IMG/VR virus record: IMGVR_UViG_3300042515_002691
Location: 1-36,126 of that record
DNA: 36,126 nucleotides
Strand: one strand, 5' to 3'
Origin: a virus
Made by a program: the position numbers and the translations under genes. Each line of letters opens with the position of its first letter. The stretch's first letter is position 1. This document shows positions 3,522 through 36,126 of the stretch, piece after piece. The notes beneath the pieces were generated by a model, which saw only the letters and a program-made list of their open reading frames with translations, was not told where the DNA came from and did not search any database.

Positions 3522-3764
3522 ATGACCGAAAAAACTTACGAAGCGCGCCCCGATGGCCGGCGCAACAACGGCGGTAAACGCGCTGGCGCTGGCCGCCGTG
3601 CTACCACGCCCGAACCCGAATCGTTGCGCTTGCCCGCGTCGGCGCGCCAAGAGTTGCGGATTTTGCTGCTCAATCAGCGGTCACTGCGCAACAATCAGCA
3701 GTTGAGCCAAGCCCAACTGTTGACTGAATTCATTCATGCTAAGTGGCTCGAATATACAGAATGA
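3522..3764 (+). CDS. Small basic protein with NGGKRAGAGRR motif
   Basis: An 80-residue protein. The N-terminal RRNNGGKRAGAGRR is a Gly/Arg motif often found at the start of phage DNA-binding or small-terminase-like proteins, and the rest is helical and Gln/Leu-rich. It may bind DNA (inference). A GTG at 3489 is in frame but would put hairpin 3 inside the gene; 3522 is therefore chosen, although no strong Shine-Dalgarno is seen. The 3' end overlaps the first copy of repeat R2. Confidence 0.55.
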   Translation: MTEKTYEARPDGRRNNGGKRAGAGRRATTPEPESLRLPASARQELRILLLNQRSLRNNQQLSQAQLLTEFIHAKWLEYTE

Positions 3765-9154: not shown

Positions 9155-9169
9155 TAGAACGATTCTAAA
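9155..9169. promoter_or_regulatory. Operator-like palindrome between recombinase and HTH gene
   Basis: TTAGAA CGA TTCTAA, a perfect 6-bp dyad, overlaps the stop codon of the recombinase gene and the upstream region of the HTH gene at 9141. Confidence 0.45.
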
Positions 9170-10142
9170 ATAGATTATCCGTCGCACCCAACGCAACGCC
9201 GTCGATCACATAGTGGCGCGCCGTGGTCTCTATGCTCTTATGCCCTAGTTGCCTCTGGGCAATCCGAATGTCGCGCTTTGCTAACTTGGTACCCACAAAC
9301 CGGCGAAAGTCATGCGGCTTGATATGCTCTAGCCCAACCTTAGCAGCATACCGCTGTACCATCTGCCAAGCGCTGACGCGGGTCATGGGCCTAGCAGATG
9401 GGTCACGGCTACCTCGGCCACCAAAGGAGGTGAAGACGAACGGCGATTCGATGCCAAGCCGGTCGCGCGCCCGTAACCAGGAGTCGATAGCAGCCTTGGC
9501 GCGCTTACCCAGCGGTCGCGCCTCGGCTTCATCCATATTCTTACCCCAAACCCACGCCACCCACCCCGCTCCGTCCTCGCCATCTTGCCATTGCAGATCA
9601 GCCACCTTGAGCGCTACCGCTTCACTGATACGCATACCGCATTCTGCCAGCGTCATCAGCAGCGCACGGTGCATCTTACCTGCCGGCGTCGCTACGTTGG
9701 GCGCTTCGGTGATACGGGCCATGTCTTCCGCGCTGATGGGGGTCCGTGCGTGCTTGCGTACCCGATCCTTGTTGGCCGACCGGCGCAAGCCTTTCACATG
9801 GCGAAACTGTTCGGCCAACTCATAGCTGATGTAGCCTTGCTGGGCCGCTTCCGCCATGATGCTACGCACCGACGCTAACCGCTGATTGATCGCGCTGACG
9901 CTGTATTGTCGCTGGTCGCCTGCCTGCGTTTGGTAGCCATCCGAAAACATGTTCTGCCGCCATCGGGCAAGGGCTGCGGGTTGTAGCGCATTGCCCCAAC
10001 TGGCGGCAAAGAGGACATAGGCGGCGAAATGAGACCGATACTGCTGGATCGTGTTGGGGCTTTTGGTGCCGGCCAAGATCGACGTGTCGAACTGTGAGCC
10101 AAGGGCCAAGCCTTGTTGCTGATAGAGGGCAATTTCACTCAT
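9165..10142 (-). CDS. Tyrosine recombinase 1 (integrase/Xer type)
   Basis: A 325-residue protein with an N-terminal SAM-like core-binding domain (SPNTIQQYRSHFAAYVLFA) and a C-terminal catalytic domain. Catalytic residues visible are R in AECGMRISEA, a candidate K in VWGKNMDEA, H and R in KPHDFRRF, H in QLGHKSIETT and the nucleophile Y in TARHYV. It cuts and rejoins DNA at a specific site. The ATG at 10142 has AAGAGG upstream and overlaps the gene before it by 8 bases. No tRNA-like att site is seen nearby, unlike recombinase 2, so its site and role (integration, dimer resolution, inversion) are open. Confidence 0.92.
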   Translation of the reverse strand: MSEIALYQQQGLALGSQFDTSILAGTKSPNTIQQYRSHFAAYVLFAASWGNALQPAALARWRQNMFSDGYQTQAGDQRQYSVSAINQRLASVRSIMAEAAQQGYISYELAEQFRHVKGLRRSANKDRVRKHARTPISAEDMARITEAPNVATPAGKMHRALLMTLAECGMRISEAVALKVADLQWQDGEDGAGWVAWVWGKNMDEAEARPLGKRAKAAIDSWLRARDRLGIESPFVFTSFGGRGSRDPSARPMTRVSAWQMVQRYAAKVGLEHIKPHDFRRFVGTKLAKRDIRIAQRQLGHKSIETTARHYVIDGVALGATDNLF

Positions 10143-25876: not shown

Positions 25877-27903
25877 GCTATAGTACGATCTTTGACAACG
25901 GACCGGGAACCAACGAAGTCAATATGCCAGCCGGGGCCACAGCCTTACCGCTCTGGTACGACGAAACCGCCGAGGGAGGCCCACAAGCTGCCGCTATCGC
26001 TGTGACTGGCGAACTGCCTAACCTCTGGCCCTTGCTGCGCTACCTGGGGCGACGGGTGCGCATCCTCAGCCGCGACGCTTCGCCGGTCTGGTGGGGCAAG
26101 GTTCACGAAGTGCGGATCGCGCTGGGAGTTGGGTTACAAGTGGGCTTGTCGCTTGATAGCATGGTCAATCGGGTGGCGGTCCGCTACGAGATCCGCAACG
26201 ATGCTGGCGCGATTCTGCGCACCAACACGGCTTACGCCGAAGACGCCGATAGCATCCTGACCTATGGCACCAAAGAGCAGTTGGCGCGCCTGCGGCAAGT
26301 CTCCCCAGCGCAAGCGGAAGCGCACCGGGATGCACTACTGACCGATCTAGCCTTCCCGCTGGCAACTTACAAGCCCAGTGACCTAAACACCCCGCCGGCA
26401 ACCCTGCTTTGTCGCGGCTATGTCGATACGTTGGATTGGATCAACTACCGGCAGCCAAATGGTTTAATCGCCAACGACTTCGACCGCACGGAGGCATTGG
26501 GCGGCGATCAGCAAATCCTTGGCCAAGGGCTGACGGCTAGCACTATCGGCTTTGCTGCCAGTGGGCGGATCACCGACTTGACGGGGCGCATGTCCAGTTT
26601 TGCGCGCGGTAGCCGCATCAAAATCACCGGCTCGACAAGCAACAACGGTAGCTACACCGTGGACGCCGGCGCAACAAAGACGGCACGAAGCTATACGGCG
26701 ACCACGATCAGCTTTGATCCAACCGATGACATTCACGATAGCGCGGAGCGGTTGAACTTCCTTGACCGGGATGACTATATGACCGTCACCGGCTCGGCAT
26801 CCAACAACGGCACCTACCGCATCAAGAGCGTCGGCGGGGAACATTGCACCCTGGCGCCCTCAACCATCGTCACGGAAGCGGCTGGGGCAAGCGTGACCGT
26901 GTCCCGCGGTAACGCCCTCACCGTTGCCAGCGCGTTGACGGCGGAAGCACCTGGTAGCAGCGTCACGATCACCGTGGTTGGCCAGAAGATCGCGCAGAAG
27001 TGGACGCAGGTTGGCACCTGGAACGCTGGTGAAATTGAGATCCGCGTCAAGCGAATCAACGGCAGTGGCATTCTCTCTTCCGACGAACTACAATGCGCCA
27101 TTCATGCTGATAGTGCCGGCGCGGTTGGCTCACTGCTGGGATCGGGAACCATCAGCATGAGTGATATTCCGCTTTACATGGATTGGCAGACCTTTAGCCT
27201 CTCCAGTAGCGTCGCCCTGGCCGATGGCACGGCCTACTGGCTGGTCATCTCGCACACCGGCGCGGATGACTATCAAGACTACTTTGTCATCGACCTAGAT
27301 GGCGATCTGAGCTACGGCGGCGGCGCGCTCAAGCTCTGGGACGGGGCAAGCTGGGTAGATCGCGCACCGGACGCCGATCTGATGTTCCGCATCAAAGGCA
27401 CGCAGGAGACGACGGCGCAAATCACTGACCTGGTTACGGTGGCGGGGCAATTCCTAGAGGGCGCGGATCTGGTGGATGCTTCTGGGGTGGATAGCTGGCA
27501 GTATCGCGACGGCACCACGACGGCCAAGGATGAATTACTGGCGCTCCTGCGCAGCGGTACGAGCAATGGGCGGCGACTGCTAGCGCGGGTGACCGATGAG
27601 CTTTACCTGCGCGTCTGGGAGCAGCCCGACCGGGAGACCGTCGAGCCAAAAATCATCTTTGGCCCAGATCAACAACTCTACAACCGCGTTGGCTCCCCAC
27701 TGGCGCACGGTCGCCTGTGCGCCGGGCAATGGGTCGATCTGGCCGATGTGCCGCCGACCGTGGGCCACACGAACCGCATTACACCGGTCTTTGTGGAGCG
27801 GGCCGTGATGAATTGCCGGGATGATCTAGTGACCATCGTCCCCACCGGCGCTGACGCCGCGGTCAATCTTGGACGAATTTCCGATCTTGACCGAAGGATC
27901 TAA
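25873..27903 (+). CDS. Large tail/host-interaction structural protein
   Basis: A 676-residue protein. The N terminus (about 1-180: YLGRRVRILSRDASPVWWGKV) and the C terminus (about 540-676: WQYRDGTTTAKDELLALLR, IIFGPDQQLYNR) look like the split halves of a tail hub or baseplate protein. Between them are two similar segments (GSTSNNGSYTV and GSASNNGTYRI) and a jelly-roll (WQTFSLSSSVALADGTAYWLVI). The insert is probably a receptor-contact domain. It overlaps the previous stop (ATGA). No tape measure precedes it. Confidence 0.5.
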   Translation: MSYSTIFDNGPGTNEVNMPAGATALPLWYDETAEGGPQAAAIAVTGELPNLWPLLRYLGRRVRILSRDASPVWWGKVHEVRIALGVGLQVGLSLDSMVNRVAVRYEIRNDAGAILRTNTAYAEDADSILTYGTKEQLARLRQVSPAQAEAHRDALLTDLAFPLATYKPSDLNTPPATLLCRGYVDTLDWINYRQPNGLIANDFDRTEALGGDQQILGQGLTASTIGFAASGRITDLTGRMSSFARGSRIKITGSTSNNGSYTVDAGATKTARSYTATTISFDPTDDIHDSAERLNFLDRDDYMTVTGSASNNGTYRIKSVGGEHCTLAPSTIVTEAAGASVTVSRGNALTVASALTAEAPGSSVTITVVGQKIAQKWTQVGTWNAGEIEIRVKRINGSGILSSDELQCAIHADSAGAVGSLLGSGTISMSDIPLYMDWQTFSLSSSVALADGTAYWLVISHTGADDYQDYFVIDLDGDLSYGGGALKLWDGASWVDRAPDADLMFRIKGTQETTAQITDLVTVAGQFLEGADLVDASGVDSWQYRDGTTTAKDELLALLRSGTSNGRRLLARVTDELYLRVWEQPDRETVEPKIIFGPDQQLYNRVGSPLAHGRLCAGQWVDLADVPPTVGHTNRITPVFVERAVMNCRDDLVTIVPTGADAAVNLGRISDLDRRI

Positions 27904-27979
27904 GCAATTTTACCGATAATTAATCTACATGGCGCTGCTCTTTCGGCGACGCTACCGACTCCCGTCCACATAGGACGCG

Positions 27980-28025
27980 AAAAGGCCGCTTGGTGGACTT
28001 CCGACAGTGAACCAAGCGGCCTTTT
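27980..28025 (+). terminator. Terminator of the late structural operon
   Basis: A 15-bp perfect stem (27980-27994 with 28011-28025) and a T-rich tail. The 16-base loop is GGACTTCCGACAGTGA, whose first 12 bases recur at 28423, 29761 and 30381. Confidence 0.9.
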
Positions 28026-28107
28026 CTATTGTCCCGACTCCCGAGCGTCAGCACGATGTCACCATATCATACAACATTAGACCTGTCAATCTCTGTAACC
28101 TGACGGA

Positions 28108-28118
28108 TTTGTAACAAA
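28108..28118. promoter_or_regulatory. Operator-like dyad TTTGTAACAAA
   Basis: TTTGT A ACAAA lies upstream of the promoter at 28134. A longer version of the same dyad lies at 29746-29758 upstream of the gene at 29773. Both share CTGAC about six bases to the left. Confidence 0.45.
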
Positions 28119-28133
28119 ACGCGATTTTGGGGC

Positions 28134-28163
28134 TTGACAAGGTGACGGGCGGTGTGATATGCT
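28134..28163 (+). promoter_or_regulatory. Promoter of the excisionase-like gene
   Basis: TTGACA (28134-28139), 18 bases and TATGCT (28158-28163). Directly downstream, AAACGCAGCAAA occurs twice (near 28166 and 28184) and could be regulator-binding direct repeats. Confidence 0.75.
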
Positions 28164-28205
28164 GCAAACGCAGCAAATGAAGAAAACGCAGCAAAAGGGG
28201 ATGAT

Positions 28206-28409
28206 ATGCAAAATCTCTCAACTGGTGAGGCTGCTAAAGTGCTGCAAGTCAGCCGGGATACGATTAGGCGACTGTGCGAAAGTGAGCAATTGCAGTGCGA
28301 CCGGCTGGGCGGCTCCAGAGGCTGGTTTCGGGTGCATAGTGACTCATTGGAGCGGTACGCTGAAGAAAACAACATCCGGCTGAACTGGAAAGCGCTAGAG
28401 CAGAAATAG
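28206..28409 (+). CDS. Excisionase-like helix-turn-helix protein
   Basis: A 67-residue protein. LSTGEAAKVLQVSRDTIRRL is a MerR/excisionase (HTH_17) helix-turn-helix, followed by a wing with GGSRGWFRV and a short helix. It binds and bends DNA. It is transcribed towards recombinase 2 and lies on the other side of attP, the usual place for a recombination directionality factor. AAAGGGG precedes the ATG. Confidence 0.8.
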   Translation: MQNLSTGEAAKVLQVSRDTIRRLCESEQLQCDRLGGSRGWFRVHSDSLERYAEENNIRLNWKALEQK

Positions 28410-28413
28410 CATC

Positions 28414-28448
28414 GCCTGGGGCGGACTTCCGACAGAGCAACCCCAAGC
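28414..28448 (+). other. Hairpin with GGACTTCCGACA loop
   Basis: TGGGG (28417-28421) pairs with CCCCA (28441-28445) and, beyond one mismatch, GC with GC. The 19-base loop holds GGACTTCCGACA (28423-28434), as in the terminator at 27980. No T run follows. Confidence 0.55.
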
Positions 28449-28570
28449 AGCGCGAAGCACTTTAACAACCCACATAAGGCAACCGGACTAGTAGCGATGC
28501 GTCAGGCCGAGGTCGGCACGTGAAGCCCCGGACAGATTGCCTATAGATTGTAAAGACTGAATGATTTCTG

Positions 28571-28604
28571 ACGTTCAGGCCGGATTGTGTTGGCGACCTG
28601 AACG
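28571..28604. other. Inverted repeat upstream of attP
   Basis: CGTTCAGG and CCTGAACG form an 8-bp perfect inverted repeat with a 17-base spacer. It could be an arm-type site for recombinase 2 or an RNA hairpin. Confidence 0.4.
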
Positions 28605-28615
28605 CCGTCTGAAAG

Positions 28616-28657
28616 TGGTGCCCCTATCCCGACTCGAACGGGAACGTCCAAAAGTTA
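28616..28657 (-). other. attP: attP core: 3' end of a tRNA gene
   Basis: On the minus strand: TCCCG TTCGAGT CGGGA makes a 5-bp T stem and a canonical 7-base T loop, followed by TAGGGGC, discriminator A and CCA. No 5' half of a tRNA is present; upstream is the integrase coding region, whose TAA stop (28655-28657) is at the edge. This is the classical phage attP arrangement in which the element carries a copy of the 3' part of its target tRNA. The CCA is encoded. Confidence 0.82.
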
Positions 28658-29608
28658 CAGGGCGTTCAACCGTGCAATCGGGCTGACTGGCGCACTACGA
28701 AGAACGTCCAACACCTCGTCAACCTGCTGCAAGGTGTAGATTACGGTCGTCGCATATTCTGCATGACCCATTTGCACTTGCAATAGCCTATTGTAACTCT
28801 CGCCTTTGAGCGCTCTAGCCCATGTGGTAGCAAAGAGCCGCCGAAGGTCGTGAGTCTCCACAGAGACGCCGGCCAACCGAGCCGCGTCTGTCACTGCCTT
28901 GTATAATCCGCCTGGGGAAATTGCTTTACCCCCTTTCCTAGACGGAAACAACGGCCCTGAATCCATATCCAACAAATCAAGCCATTGGCTTAGGTACGAA
29001 CCGGTAGCAGCATCGAACGCAACAATGCGGGCTTTGTCGTTCTTGGTAACGCTGGGCTGAATGTAGCCGGCGCCATCAGCATGAACAACAACGTCATCAA
29101 TCATGATCGATGCTGCCTCCTCGCGCCGTAGCGCGGTGCCTGCTAACACGGCAATGATTGCCCGATTCCTGATCGGGTAGGCCATCCGCCAACAGGCTTG
29201 TAGCATGGCGGCCAGAGCGTCGAGCGAAAGCGGAAGGCGCGCCGGGGTTGATCCCCTGACTTTCGGCACAAACACACCGAAGTCAACCGGCACATAACCG
29301 GCCCGCTGCGCCCACCGGAACATCTGGCGCAGGCGCTTGACTGCATCATGGCGGCTACCATACCCCCAGCCGAGATCAAGCAACCACTGTTCGTACTCAG
29401 CAAGGTCATTGGCCGATAAGATCCAATCGGTTGCCGGCCCAACGGTCAGCCACCAGTCAACAAAGGCGCGCAGCTTAAACCGATAGCCCTTGACGGTCAC
29501 CGGCTGGACTCTACGCCTGCAATCGGCAAGGTAAGCGCCAACAAGCTTATCTAACTGCTCAGCGCGTAGGGATGGGGAATCTACATCAAAACGAATTTCA
29601 TGGATCAC
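28655..29608 (-). CDS. int: Tyrosine recombinase 2 (integrase)
   Basis: A 317-residue protein with an N-terminal core-binding domain (YRFKLRAFVDWW, KRLRQMFRWAQR) and a catalytic domain with R in GTALRREEA, K in TKNDKARIV, HDLRR, QMGHAEY and the nucleophile Y in TVIYTLQQ. Next to attP, it should integrate the phage genome into a host tRNA gene. The GTG at 29608 with AGGAGG 5 bases upstream is the start; upstream in-frame ATGs lie in the promoter region. Confidence 0.93.
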   Translation of the reverse strand: MIHEIRFDVDSPSLRAEQLDKLVGAYLADCRRRVQPVTVKGYRFKLRAFVDWWLTVGPATDWILSANDLAEYEQWLLDLGWGYGSRHDAVKRLRQMFRWAQRAGYVPVDFGVFVPKVRGSTPARLPLSLDALAAMLQACWRMAYPIRNRAIIAVLAGTALRREEAASIMIDDVVVHADGAGYIQPSVTKNDKARIVAFDAATGSYLSQWLDLLDMDSGPLFPSRKGGKAISPGGLYKAVTDAARLAGVSVETHDLRRLFATTWARALKGESYNRLLQVQMGHAEYATTVIYTLQQVDEVLDVLRSAPVSPIARLNAL

Positions 29609-29745
29609 GGGTGCCTCCTGGGTTATAGGGAAAGGGGAGAAAATCGAGATAACCGGATTGTAGCGGAGAAAAGCGAAGCCCGGTAAACCAGCATACATGA
29701 CAATGCGCTGTTTCTGGACTTTCGCTTTTGTTGTTTTGCTGACAA

Positions 29746-29758
29746 TTTTGTAACAAAA
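29746..29758. promoter_or_regulatory. Operator-like palindrome TTTTGTAACAAAA
   Basis: A 6-bp dyad around one A lies in the divergent region between int and the early genes, directly before the ribosome site of the 29773 gene. It is the longer partner of the dyad at 28108. Confidence 0.5.
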
Positions 29759-29760
29759 AA

Positions 29761-29772
29761 GGACTTCCGACA
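29761..29772 (+). promoter_or_regulatory. GGACTTCCGACA motif abutting start codon (copy A)
   Basis: The 12-mer ends exactly at the ATG of 29773. Together with the preceding AA it forms the ribosome site AAGGA. Confidence 0.75.
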
Positions 29773-30048
29773 ATGCCTAAAACGACAACGCTTGAAACGA
29801 CAACGCCCGAACAGGGAGAGGCAAATGCGCTTCTGACAATGCCTGAGCACGAGAAAGCGGACGCCATTGCATTGCTGTCCGATCTAAATCTTGATGCAAC
29901 CAGGCTCTTCCGCCGATGCCTGGCGATTTGCCAAGTCGCCGACGCCGCACTACTCGCCGCAGTGGCGAAACTCAGTCGCGAGACCGATATTGCGCTCAAA
30001 GTTGCGACGGGGGTGAGCGATGAAAGCGACCCGATTATCTTCAACTGA
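29773..30048 (+). CDS. Hypothetical early protein
   Basis: A 91-residue protein with a Thr/Glu-rich disordered start and two helices (EKADAIALLSDLNLDATRLFR, VADAALLAAVAKLSRE in outline). It is not recognised. It is the first rightward gene after int, with the 12-mer motif at its start. Confidence 0.6.
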   Translation: MPKTTTLETTTPEQGEANALLTMPEHEKADAIALLSDLNLDATRLFRRCLAICQVADAALLAAVAKLSRETDIALKVATGVSDESDPIIFN

Positions 30049-30265
30049 CGACGAAAGCACCCGATGGTGCGCCCTGCTTTGCGCAGTCACGCTGCAAGCG
30101 GTCTATGATGCCAGAAAGAACAACGGCTATGGAAGAGGGGTAGACGCCCTGCATTATCTCAACTCCCCGACTGCGCAGGATCTCCATGATCTGGCGGGGA
30201 TCAACATCCGCCGAAAGTGGGATTTTGTCAACATCAACCGACGCAACCGCGCAAAACGTGCATAG
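30020..30265 (+). CDS. Hypothetical early protein
   Basis: An 81-residue basic protein (MKATRLSSTDDESTRWCALL, DLAGINIRRKWDFVNINRR). It overlaps the previous gene by 29 bases, with a ribosome-like GGGGGTGAG upstream. It is not recognised. Confidence 0.55.
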   Translation: MKATRLSSTDDESTRWCALLCAVTLQAVYDARKNNGYGRGVDALHYLNSPTAQDLHDLAGINIRRKWDFVNINRRNRAKRA

Positions 30266-30288
30266 CATGGTCTGTTTCTGCCAGAAAT

Positions 30289-30352
30289 TCAGCCGCCATA
30301 GCGAAATAATTGCAAAGTGGTCTATTGATACCAAAACGCAAAAATGATGCAA
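30289..30352. other. Inverted repeat in the intergenic region
   Basis: AGCCGCCAT and ATGGCGGCT are perfect 9-base inverted repeats about 50 bases apart, between 30265 and 30393. The interior is AT-rich. A role as weak terminator or operator is possible. Confidence 0.4.
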
Positions 30353-30380
30353 TGGCGGCTTTCCTATTGATTCAATGAGA

Positions 30381-30392
30381 GGACTTCCGACA
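30381..30392 (+). promoter_or_regulatory. GGACTTCCGACA motif abutting start codon (copy B)
   Basis: The same 12-mer as at 29761 is followed immediately by the ATG at 30393 and preceded by GA, giving the ribosome site GAGGA. Confidence 0.75.
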
Positions 30393-30824
30393 ATGTCCAC
30401 GAACAACTATCTTGAACACTCCGTCGAGCAGATGAGCGATGCCGACGAACGCCGGCGCAACGCTGCTGCACAGTGGCAAGCGAACATTTACAGCCCTGGC
30501 GACATTTTGGCCTTTCGCCTGCCCACGGTCGAAGATGTCAACATCGAGCTACAACGCCACATCCCGACCTACACGGATATGTGTCGTAACTACTCACCGT
30601 TCCCAAGCACCGGCTTGACCGTCCTGGCTGTGCTGGAGACCGCCGACAAGCTGCCGCAGCACTTGCAACTGACTTACGTGCAGGAAATCATCAATCGCCT
30701 GGTCGGCTGGGTTGCCGACGAAACCGACACCGACCCGGCGCCATTTGACGAGGTTGCCGGCTTTGCGGCGGCGGTGGAATATCCGCAACGCGTAGAGGTG
30801 TTTTACACGCAGGGCGGTGCGTGA
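30393..30824 (+). CDS. Hypothetical protein upstream of the replication initiator
   Basis: A 143-residue acidic protein (LEHSVEQMSDADERRRNAAA, FAAAVEYPQRVEVFY). It is not recognised. The start at 30393 is supported by the shared leader motif. It overlaps the initiator gene by TGATG. Confidence 0.65.
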   Translation: MSTNNYLEHSVEQMSDADERRRNAAAQWQANIYSPGDILAFRLPTVEDVNIELQRHIPTYTDMCRNYSPFPSTGLTVLAVLETADKLPQHLQLTYVQEIINRLVGWVADETDTDPAPFDEVAGFAAAVEYPQRVEVFYTQGGA

Positions 30825-31807
30825 TGAGCATCAAGGCAATGGGGTGGTATTGGGAGCATAGCGCCCAGTCTGGGCATAAGCTCCTGGCTCTCTTGGCGCT
30901 TGCCGATTGGGCCAACGACGACGGCGACTGTTACCCCCGAATGGAGCGGATAGCGCAACGAATCAGGCGCGACCCCAGAAGCGCACAGCGCGCAGTCACG
31001 GAATTGGAGGTTGACGGTGAGTTGCTGATCTATCCCGGCGAAGGATCGGGCCAACGAGGTCAGAAAAGCCCGCGTTATTACCTGCTACGTTACATGCAGG
31101 CGCACAGCATTTCGCTTCCGCCGATGATTGTGGAGGATGCGCGGCGGCGGCGCTGCCAAGATCGCATTGCCGGCCAAAAGGCTGCAAGGCTACGACGCCA
31201 ACGGTTAGCGCTGACCGGTGACACGGATGTCACCCCTACCGGTGACACGGATGTCACCCCTACCGGTGACACGGATGTCACCCCTACCGGTGACACGGAT
31301 GTCACCCCTACCGGTGACACGCGTGTCACCCAGATCCATCATATAGATCCGTCAGTATTTAACCATCATTCTGATCCGTCAATCATCCACCATCCACCAT
31401 CCATAGATCAGGGCGTAATGGCGGGTTCGATGGTGCGTGGTGGTGGTTGCTCCATTCTCGCTCTTCAATTGATTCGGGATTACTTTAACGGCTGGAACAA
31501 TGCAGTGACTTACGTCTTTGGTTTGGACGATCAGCGCTCTTGGACGCTTTGCACCTGGCTATGGGCTGAAAGGCTGCTACAGGCCAAAGCGCCAGCGGTT
31601 GAGGGCGATCCTTCCGCTCTGCTGCAATTCCTGGAAGATAAGCGAGAGGTCGAGACGGCATACACACCGTTGTTCACCGGTGTTTCCAACAAAATCGGGC
31701 TGATCCGGCGCCACGTCGCCAACAACTACCCCGCGCCTCTGCTCGATGTCGATGTCAACGGCCTACGGGCTGCAATCGAAAACGAGGTGTCACATGGCGA
31801 AGGGTAG
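30824..31807 (+). CDS. Replication initiator-like protein (lambda O type layout)
   Basis: A 327-residue protein. Residues about 15-90 form a winged-helix domain typical of phage replication initiators (HKLLALLALADWANDDGDCYP, then MERIAQRIRR and SAQRAVTELEVDGEL). A basic linker leads to five repeats of TGDTDVTP (about 132-171), the protein reading of the DNA iterons, then a disordered His/Pro stretch and a helical C terminus (IRDYFNGWNNAVTYVFGLDD onward) that could contact helicase machinery. It should bind the iterons inside its own gene and open the AT-rich DNA next to them. No replicative helicase or polymerase is encoded here. Confidence 0.72.
   Translation: MSIKAMGWYWEHSAQSGHKLLALLALADWANDDGDCYPRMERIAQRIRRDPRSAQRAVTELEVDGELLIYPGEGSGQRGQKSPRYYLLRYMQAHSISLPPMIVEDARRRRCQDRIAGQKAARLRRQRLALTGDTDVTPTGDTDVTPTGDTDVTPTGDTDVTPTGDTRVTQIHHIDPSVFNHHSDPSIIHHPPSIDQGVMAGSMVRGGGCSILALQLIRDYFNGWNNAVTYVFGLDDQRSWTLCTWLWAERLLQAKAPAVEGDPSALLQFLEDKREVETAYTPLFTGVSNKIGLIRRHVANNYPAPLLDVDVNGLRAAIENEVSHGEG
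31217..31336. repeat. Five 24-bp palindromic iterons
   Basis: Units of GGTGACACGGATGTCACC plus CCTACC run head to tail at 31217, 31241, 31265, 31289 and 31313. Each contains GGTGACA/TGTCACC dyad arms; the fifth is an 18-bp perfect palindrome (GGTGACACG/CGTGTCACC). Confidence 0.95.
31217..31420. other. ori: Candidate replication origin inside the initiator gene
   Basis: The iterons are followed by an AT-richer stretch (31337-31415) with repeated GATCCGTCA and short AT tracts (CATATAGATC, AGTATTTAA). Iterons with dyad symmetry, followed by AT-rich DNA, inside an O-like gene is the arrangement of the lambda origin. This is an inference from architecture. Confidence 0.65.
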
Positions 31808-35885: not shown

Positions 35886-36126
35886 AAACAGCTATCCAGG
35901 CGGCAAAGGTCAGGTTTTCCGATGGCTAATTAACGAGATTCCGCCCCACCGGCGCTTTATTTCGCTTTTCCTGGGCCATTGTGCAATTATGAGAAATAAG
36001 CGCCCGGCGGCGGTGAATGTTGGCCTAGACTTAGACGCCGATGTCGTCGAACACTGGCGGAACCGGCAACCATCCGCCGGCGTCATCGTCGGGGCTGACG
36101 CTCCTGCAGTGACGGCGGGCGCGCCG
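35878..36126 (+). CDS. DNA adenine methyltransferase (D12 class), N-terminal part; continues at base 1
   Basis: MGENSYPGGKGQVFRWLI starts the enzyme described at 2-757, with the SAM-binding PGGKG at residues 7-11. The frame runs through 35999 into base 1 without interruption. The ATG overlaps the exonuclease stop by 8 bases, which couples the two. Confidence 0.88.
   Translation, partial: MGENSYPGGKGQVFRWLINEIPPHRRFISLFLGHCAIMRNKRPAAVNVGLDLDADVVEHWRNRQPSAGVIVGADAPAVTAGAP
36000..36126. repeat. Terminal direct repeat, right copy
   Basis: Identical to 1-127; see the left copy. Confidence 0.9.

Follow-up and report, generated by a model that had tools for sequence, protein, structure and literature searches.

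The choice between lysogeny and lysis is known to be made by antisense RNAs in few phages, namely P1/P7, P4, P22, and lambda.

In P1/P7, the C4 RNA is an antisense RNA with complementary stretches in loops, pairing about the ribosome-binding site of a gene on the lytic side (PMC12197685), and in satellite phage P4, the antisense CI RNA holds off the replication genes by way of repeated complementary sites (PMC4825925). RNA I and RNA II of par pAD1 (Fst) share a bidirectional terminator, make their first contact at the terminator loop, and pair through repeats at start codons (PMC7472228). In Listeria, LhrC uses its terminator loop, among other sites, to pair at the Shine-Dalgarno region of its target (PMC4132741), and the prophage sponge RNA AsxR binds the terminator stem-loop of a repressing small RNA (PMC12197685). 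In pMV158, an antisense RNA, RNAII, blocks translation of the replication initiator and acts beside the transcriptional repressor CopG (PMC4485353). Here, we describe a 12-mer in the genome of an uncultured phage that, judging from the letters and their conservation, is likely the word by which an antisense small RNA encoded by the phage recognizes and represses early genes.

Results

The window, by which we mean the whole stretch of DNA analyzed, is a virus record of 36,126 bp. Its first and last 127 bases (1-127 and 36000-36126) form an exact direct terminal repeat, so that the record probably represents a complete genome of 35,999 bp (~36.0 kb), circular or circularly permuted. The late genes, which run to 27903, are followed by a first hairpin (hairpin 1), a xis gene, a second hairpin (hairpin 2), a likely attP, and an integrase gene on the minus strand, assigned by Pfam/PHROG profile search and situated between attP and ORF 29773. 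Beyond the integrase lie, in order, ORFs 29773, 30020, 30393, and 30821. The genes needed for the argument are as follows.

28206-28409, plus strand: xis-like gene, with HTH_17 and excisionase profiles
29773-30048, plus strand: early ORF 29773, 91 aa, without family match
30393-30824, plus strand: early ORF 30393, 143 aa, without family match, its 3' end overlapping the replication-initiator ORF
30821-31807, plus strand: ORF 30821, O-like replication initiator (phrog_391, E value = 5.6e-15)

A preliminary description, made from the letters, had called the gene after the late terminator Xis-like, and the profile matches bear this out. ORFs 30393 and 30821 overlap by a few bases. No Pfam or PHROG family matched ORF 29773 or ORF 30393, and homologues of the two were not found among GenBank phages. 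In structure prediction, the 68-aa core of ORF 29773 modeled as one long helix, which was not informative, and the model of ORF 30393 was unusable (pLDDT 39.8).

Several further features of the genome were recorded. Within the O-like gene, tandem 24-bp repeats (ACCGGTGACACGGATGTCACCCCT, 31214-31323) resemble origin iterons. A second tyrosine recombinase gene lies far from attP on the minus strand (9165-10142; phrog_1, E value = 1.5e-34) and is conserved in the relative L018, introduced below. Positions 28617-28650, on the minus strand, read by inspection as the 3' end of a tRNA (GGACGTTCCCGTTCGAGTCGGGATAGGGGCACCA) and are the likely attP core; 28 bases of this tRNA fragment had no exact match in genome_contigs, and a search for the host by integrase alignment scan of genome_contigs found nothing.

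The 12-mer, GGACTTCCGACA, occurs in four exact copies, all on the plus strand, which are distributed over two hairpins and two translation starts.

27979-28026, both strands: hairpin 1, late-operon terminator on the plus strand and predicted small-RNA 3' hairpin and terminator on the minus strand
28409-28458, plus strand: hairpin 2, in the xis 3' UTR, right after the xis stop codon
27995-28006, plus strand: copy 1 of the 12-mer, in the loop of hairpin 1; its complement is the seed of the predicted small RNA
28423-28434, plus strand: copy 2, in the loop region of hairpin 2, xis 3' UTR
29761-29772, plus strand: copy 3, in the Shine-Dalgarno region of ORF 29773, predicted small-RNA target
30381-30392, plus strand: copy 4, in the Shine-Dalgarno region of ORF 30393, predicted small-RNA target

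These are the copies, and the placements in loops and at the base before ATG, that the preliminary description had reported; our count over the whole record found no further exact copy on either strand, and the sole other match at up to two mismatches is at position 634. With the A that precedes it, the word contains the Shine-Dalgarno motif AGGA and extends to the base before the ATG of both ORF 29773 and ORF 30393. The claim that four copies exceed chance also held up: composition predicts 0.0026 copies, and among 400 simulated genomes, half of them first-order and half third-order Markov (200 each), none contained any 12-mer four times. Hairpin loops were also scanned for repeated 10-mers, but the result was too noisy for use as a null. 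AGGACTTCCGACAATG was present in four other viral contigs (L005, L008, L010, and L011), in one copy each, which we treated as chance.

One explanation would see in the word only a favored translation-start context, AGGACUUCCGACAAUG, which the loops share by chance or duplication. AGGA is indeed a plausible Shine-Dalgarno motif at the right distance, but a start cassette needs just 4 of the 12 bases, and CUUCCGACA lies outside AGGA; moreover, it is not found at any other start of the record, and the copy in hairpin 2 has no start codon downstream. We gave this explanation the smallest chance of all those considered.

Hairpin 1 has a loop of 16 nt (27995-28010) and a predicted folding energy of −38.4 kcal/mol (z = −8.05, for a folded stretch of 66 nt). 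It begins with an A-run and closes with a T-run and can therefore act as a terminator in either direction. Past the hairpin, the minus strand has a short U-run (TTTTCGCG), so that termination on this strand may be leaky. Hairpin 2 is a weaker fold (z = −1.44), and the start-site copies 3 and 4 do not lie within hairpins comparable to these two.

Next, we looked at how the word is kept in related phages. Two independent, fairly close relatives span the region: IMGVR 3300042343_001523 (L007/L012/L019) and IMGVR 3300046011_009267 (L006/L018), of which L009/L020 is a near copy that differs at 4 of 2562 positions. Scans with the portal, integrase, xis, and early proteins returned the same few close phages, and the portal contigs stop short of the region. 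In all these relatives, the word stands in the two loops, whose stems have drifted, and ahead of the start of the 29773 homologue, and their records contain it at no other place. The preliminary description had staked its reading on the word standing at the same positions in related phages, and it does: all three sites are exact in L019, whose sequence stops before the 30393 site, and three of four are exact in L018, whose 30393 homologue carries the G-U-compatible GGATTTCCGACA. Copy 2 is identical in L018 at 12 of 12 positions, though the adjoining xis gene is only about 70% identical.

The start codon of ORF 29773 in L018 is another one, corresponding by homology to an ATG inside the window gene; despite this shift, the word again stands immediately before the ATG that is used. 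Compared with L018, the window gene has an N-terminal extension (29773-29841); the letters at its end, CTTCTGACAATG, immediately ahead of the internal start near 29839, look like a degenerate copy of the word. Between hairpin 2 and the 29773 homologue, L018 and L020 show a clean absence of integrase and attP, with xis and the two hairpins retained and the word still in its place.

The loop of hairpin 1 is identical at 16 of 16 positions in all three phages, despite a drifting stem in L018 that has undergone two compensatory double changes, a two-pair insertion, and three one-sided changes. Because the stem changes in step around a fixed loop and xis has diverged, the hairpin structure and the loop letters each appear to be selected, separately. 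Three of the L018 stem pairs are G-U on the plus strand and A-C on the minus strand and thus hold only on the plus strand, which argues that the plus-strand terminator function is selected as well.

It could be supposed that the hairpins serve retroregulation or processing, as RNase III or stability elements with a loop inherited by common descent, and that the start-site copies are recruited Shine-Dalgarno cassettes. In lambda, sib lies across attP from int, and hairpin 2 occupies the like position here. Such a scheme gives no account of an invariant loop amid changing stems, however, nor of the exact word at two start codons, and we regard it as very unlikely.

The region between hairpin 1 and xis contains two divergent promoters, one of which would direct the predicted RNA.

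28061-28089, minus strand: predicted small-RNA promoter, with −35 TTGACA, a 17-bp spacer, and a TG-extended −10 TATGGT
28134-28163, plus strand: xis promoter, TTGACA-18-TATGCT, with TG
27975-28054, minus strand: predicted antisense small RNA of ~80 nt, with its 5' end near 28054 and its 3' end near 27975

Scored against the sigma-70 consensus, assumed here to hold for the host, no TG-extended site in the 36-kb record besides these two promoters had 10 or more of 12 matches; simulated sequences had 0.0 such sites per strand (n = 50). The minus-strand promoter points at hairpin 1, the near edge of which is 35 bases from the −10, and its −35, −10, TG, and spacing are unchanged in L019 and L018; in L018, these elements and the 16-nt loop are kept although xis is 71% identical. 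The RNA is predicted to fold as a 5' hairpin plus the terminator hairpin (−42.8 kcal/mol, z = −5.64). On sequence prediction, it would have both its own promoter and its own terminator. Read on the minus strand, the loop of hairpin 1 is UGUCGGAAGUCC, the exact complement of the 12-mer, and would expose 12 nt complementary to the ribosome-binding sites at the two start sites. The preliminary description had reasoned that copies of the same sense do not pair with one another, which overlooks this minus-strand transcript of the terminator hairpin.

No Rfam family, C4 antisense RNA included, reached its gathering score anywhere in the window, and a search of 27800-30900 at an E value of ≤1 gave a single subthreshold match (STnc500). 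A peptide encoded by the predicted RNA was considered and dropped, as no minus-strand reading frame is kept across the three phages.

An operator-like, palindrome-like sequence, TTTGTAACAAAA, lies between the divergent promoters (28108-28119), where it is conserved at 12 of 12 positions; it recurs just upstream of copy 3 (29747-29758), where it is also conserved. It is likely the operator of a phage regulator, and given these two locations, a DNA-binding regulator probably sets the timing of the predicted RNA, xis, and the first early gene. The presence of such sites nearby could suggest that the 12-mer is itself a repressor-binding site in DNA. The 12-mer is non-palindromic, though, and lies inside transcribed regions and hairpin loops, and the separate conserved TTTGTAACAAAA is the better candidate; we found an operator role for the 12-mer very unlikely and dropped it.

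We then ranked the possible partners of the loop at 3689 ATG, GTG, and TTG triplets on both strands (background mean, −9.7 kcal/mol; sd, 2.8 kcal/mol). The strongest outside its own locus were the starts of ORF 29773 (−23.8 kcal/mol) and ORF 30393 (−24.0 kcal/mol). Since joint folding cannot model kissing loops, we used accessibility-corrected duplex energies, which gave a net pairing, after the opening of both partners, of −11.8 to −14.3 kcal/mol at the four window sites (about −14 kcal/mol at 29773 and −11.8 kcal/mol at 30393). The corresponding predictions for L018 were −14.4 kcal/mol at the 29773 site and a weaker value, about −8.6 kcal/mol, at the 30393 site, the sole variant target, where a C-to-T change replaces G-C with G-U and pairing is kept. 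The complementarity restates the repeat and is not independent of it; independent support comes from the minus-strand promoter and its conservation. The noncoding leader of ORF 30393 (30265-30380) is near-identical in L018 and can be folded into a long hairpin (z = −2.25).

The preliminary description had proposed a decoy arrangement, in which a factor that binds the word at start sites is titrated by the two loops. The link between loops and start sites stands, and a sponge is plausible; neither an RNA-binding protein nor a host small RNA is needed, because the conserved minus-strand promoter would make an RNA with a loop complementing the word. If the factor were a phage or host protein binding GGACUUCCGACA at the two start sites, the conservation of the word on the plus strand, in loops and at start sites alike, would be expected, and the L018 stem changes, which favor plus-strand pairing, would fit. 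Yet this explanation requires an additional protein, the start-site copies have no comparable hairpins, and the conserved promoter aimed at the loop is left unexplained. We therefore consider a protein decoy unlikely. As to titration of the CsrA type, no CsrA-like family was seen among the ~40 phage ORFs scanned with PHROGs, 10 of them also with Pfam.

Discussion

Starting from the word, the hairpins, the promoter, their conservation, and the complementarity, all of which are observed in the DNA itself, we infer that an antisense RNA is transcribed and that its effect is repression. Lying between xis and the late terminator, the minus-strand promoter would give rise to an RNA of ~80 nt with its end at that terminator, and the UGUCGGAAGUCC loop of this RNA would pair over 12 nt from the Shine-Dalgarno motif to the start of ORFs 29773 and 30393, blocking ribosome binding. 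Because ORF 30393 overlaps the O-like replication initiator, the initiator, presumably translationally coupled, would be held down along with it, and replication would be restrained too. With the word in the loop of hairpin 2, the xis mRNA may be a further target or a sponge, and the 3' end of the late mRNA would be a full antisense partner and possibly also a sponge. Any decoy role of these two 3' hairpins would be secondary to the antisense-target relation.

A wider circuit built on one RNA word can be put forward only tentatively, and we would sooner doubt it than rely on it: the late terminator would double as the end of an antisense gene that silences the first early gene and the initiator-overlapping gene, and the xis and late 3' ends would serve as sponges, with the result that replication is released upon excision and late transcription. 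Placed in the xis 3' UTR, the word would link prophage excision to the derepression of replication by means of RNA alone. The locus also suggests that the sequence of an uncultured phage is by itself enough to predict an antisense RNA, with its promoter, terminator, two targets, and candidate sponge. As a search rule, we suggest looking for terminator-loop words that are repeated at start codons and have a promoter facing the terminator.

The predicted RNA works, as proposed, like known antisense RNAs, and we filed it as a member of no one family. It shares with C4 of P1/P7 a phage antisense character, complementarity in a loop, and pairing at ribosome-binding sites; C4, however, targets an antirepressor gene, whereas the predicted RNA has its own promoter on the opposite strand, 1.7 to 2.4 kb from its two targets. 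Like CI of P4, it would act in antisense on replication genes through repeated complementary sites, but CI arises by processing of a longer primary transcript and works through transcription termination, while here Shine-Dalgarno sites would be covered.

The likeness to par pAD1 would lie in a bidirectional terminator of opposing transcripts, contact at the terminator loop, and pairing at start codons. In the phage, hairpin 1 can fold on both strands and the minus-strand promoter faces it, but the plus-strand transcript is the long late operon. The par pAD1 system is a toxin-antitoxin module in which the repeats and the loop are distinct, whereas in the phage the loop and the start sites share a single word; a small hydrophobic toxin of the Fst/par kind was not seen, the two targets (91 and 143 aa) being nonhydrophobic by inspection and without a Pfam or PHROG match.

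LhrC similarly pairs through its terminator loop at a target Shine-Dalgarno region but is a multicopy, stress-induced bacterial small RNA with CUCCC/U-rich sites, in contrast to the exact 12-mer found here. Hairpin 2 might act as a sponge in the manner of AsxR, with the difference that AsxR targets the small RNA FnrS and hairpin 2 would target the phage's own RNA. RNAII of pMV158 resembles the predicted RNA in being directed against a replication initiator with a transcriptional regulator nearby; RNAII serves plasmid copy control and targets the initiator gene itself, whereas here the overlapping ORF 30393 would be targeted. Plasmid copy-control RNAs are similar in mode of action to the predicted RNA, and P22 sar and lambda OOP are also among its closest functional analogues.
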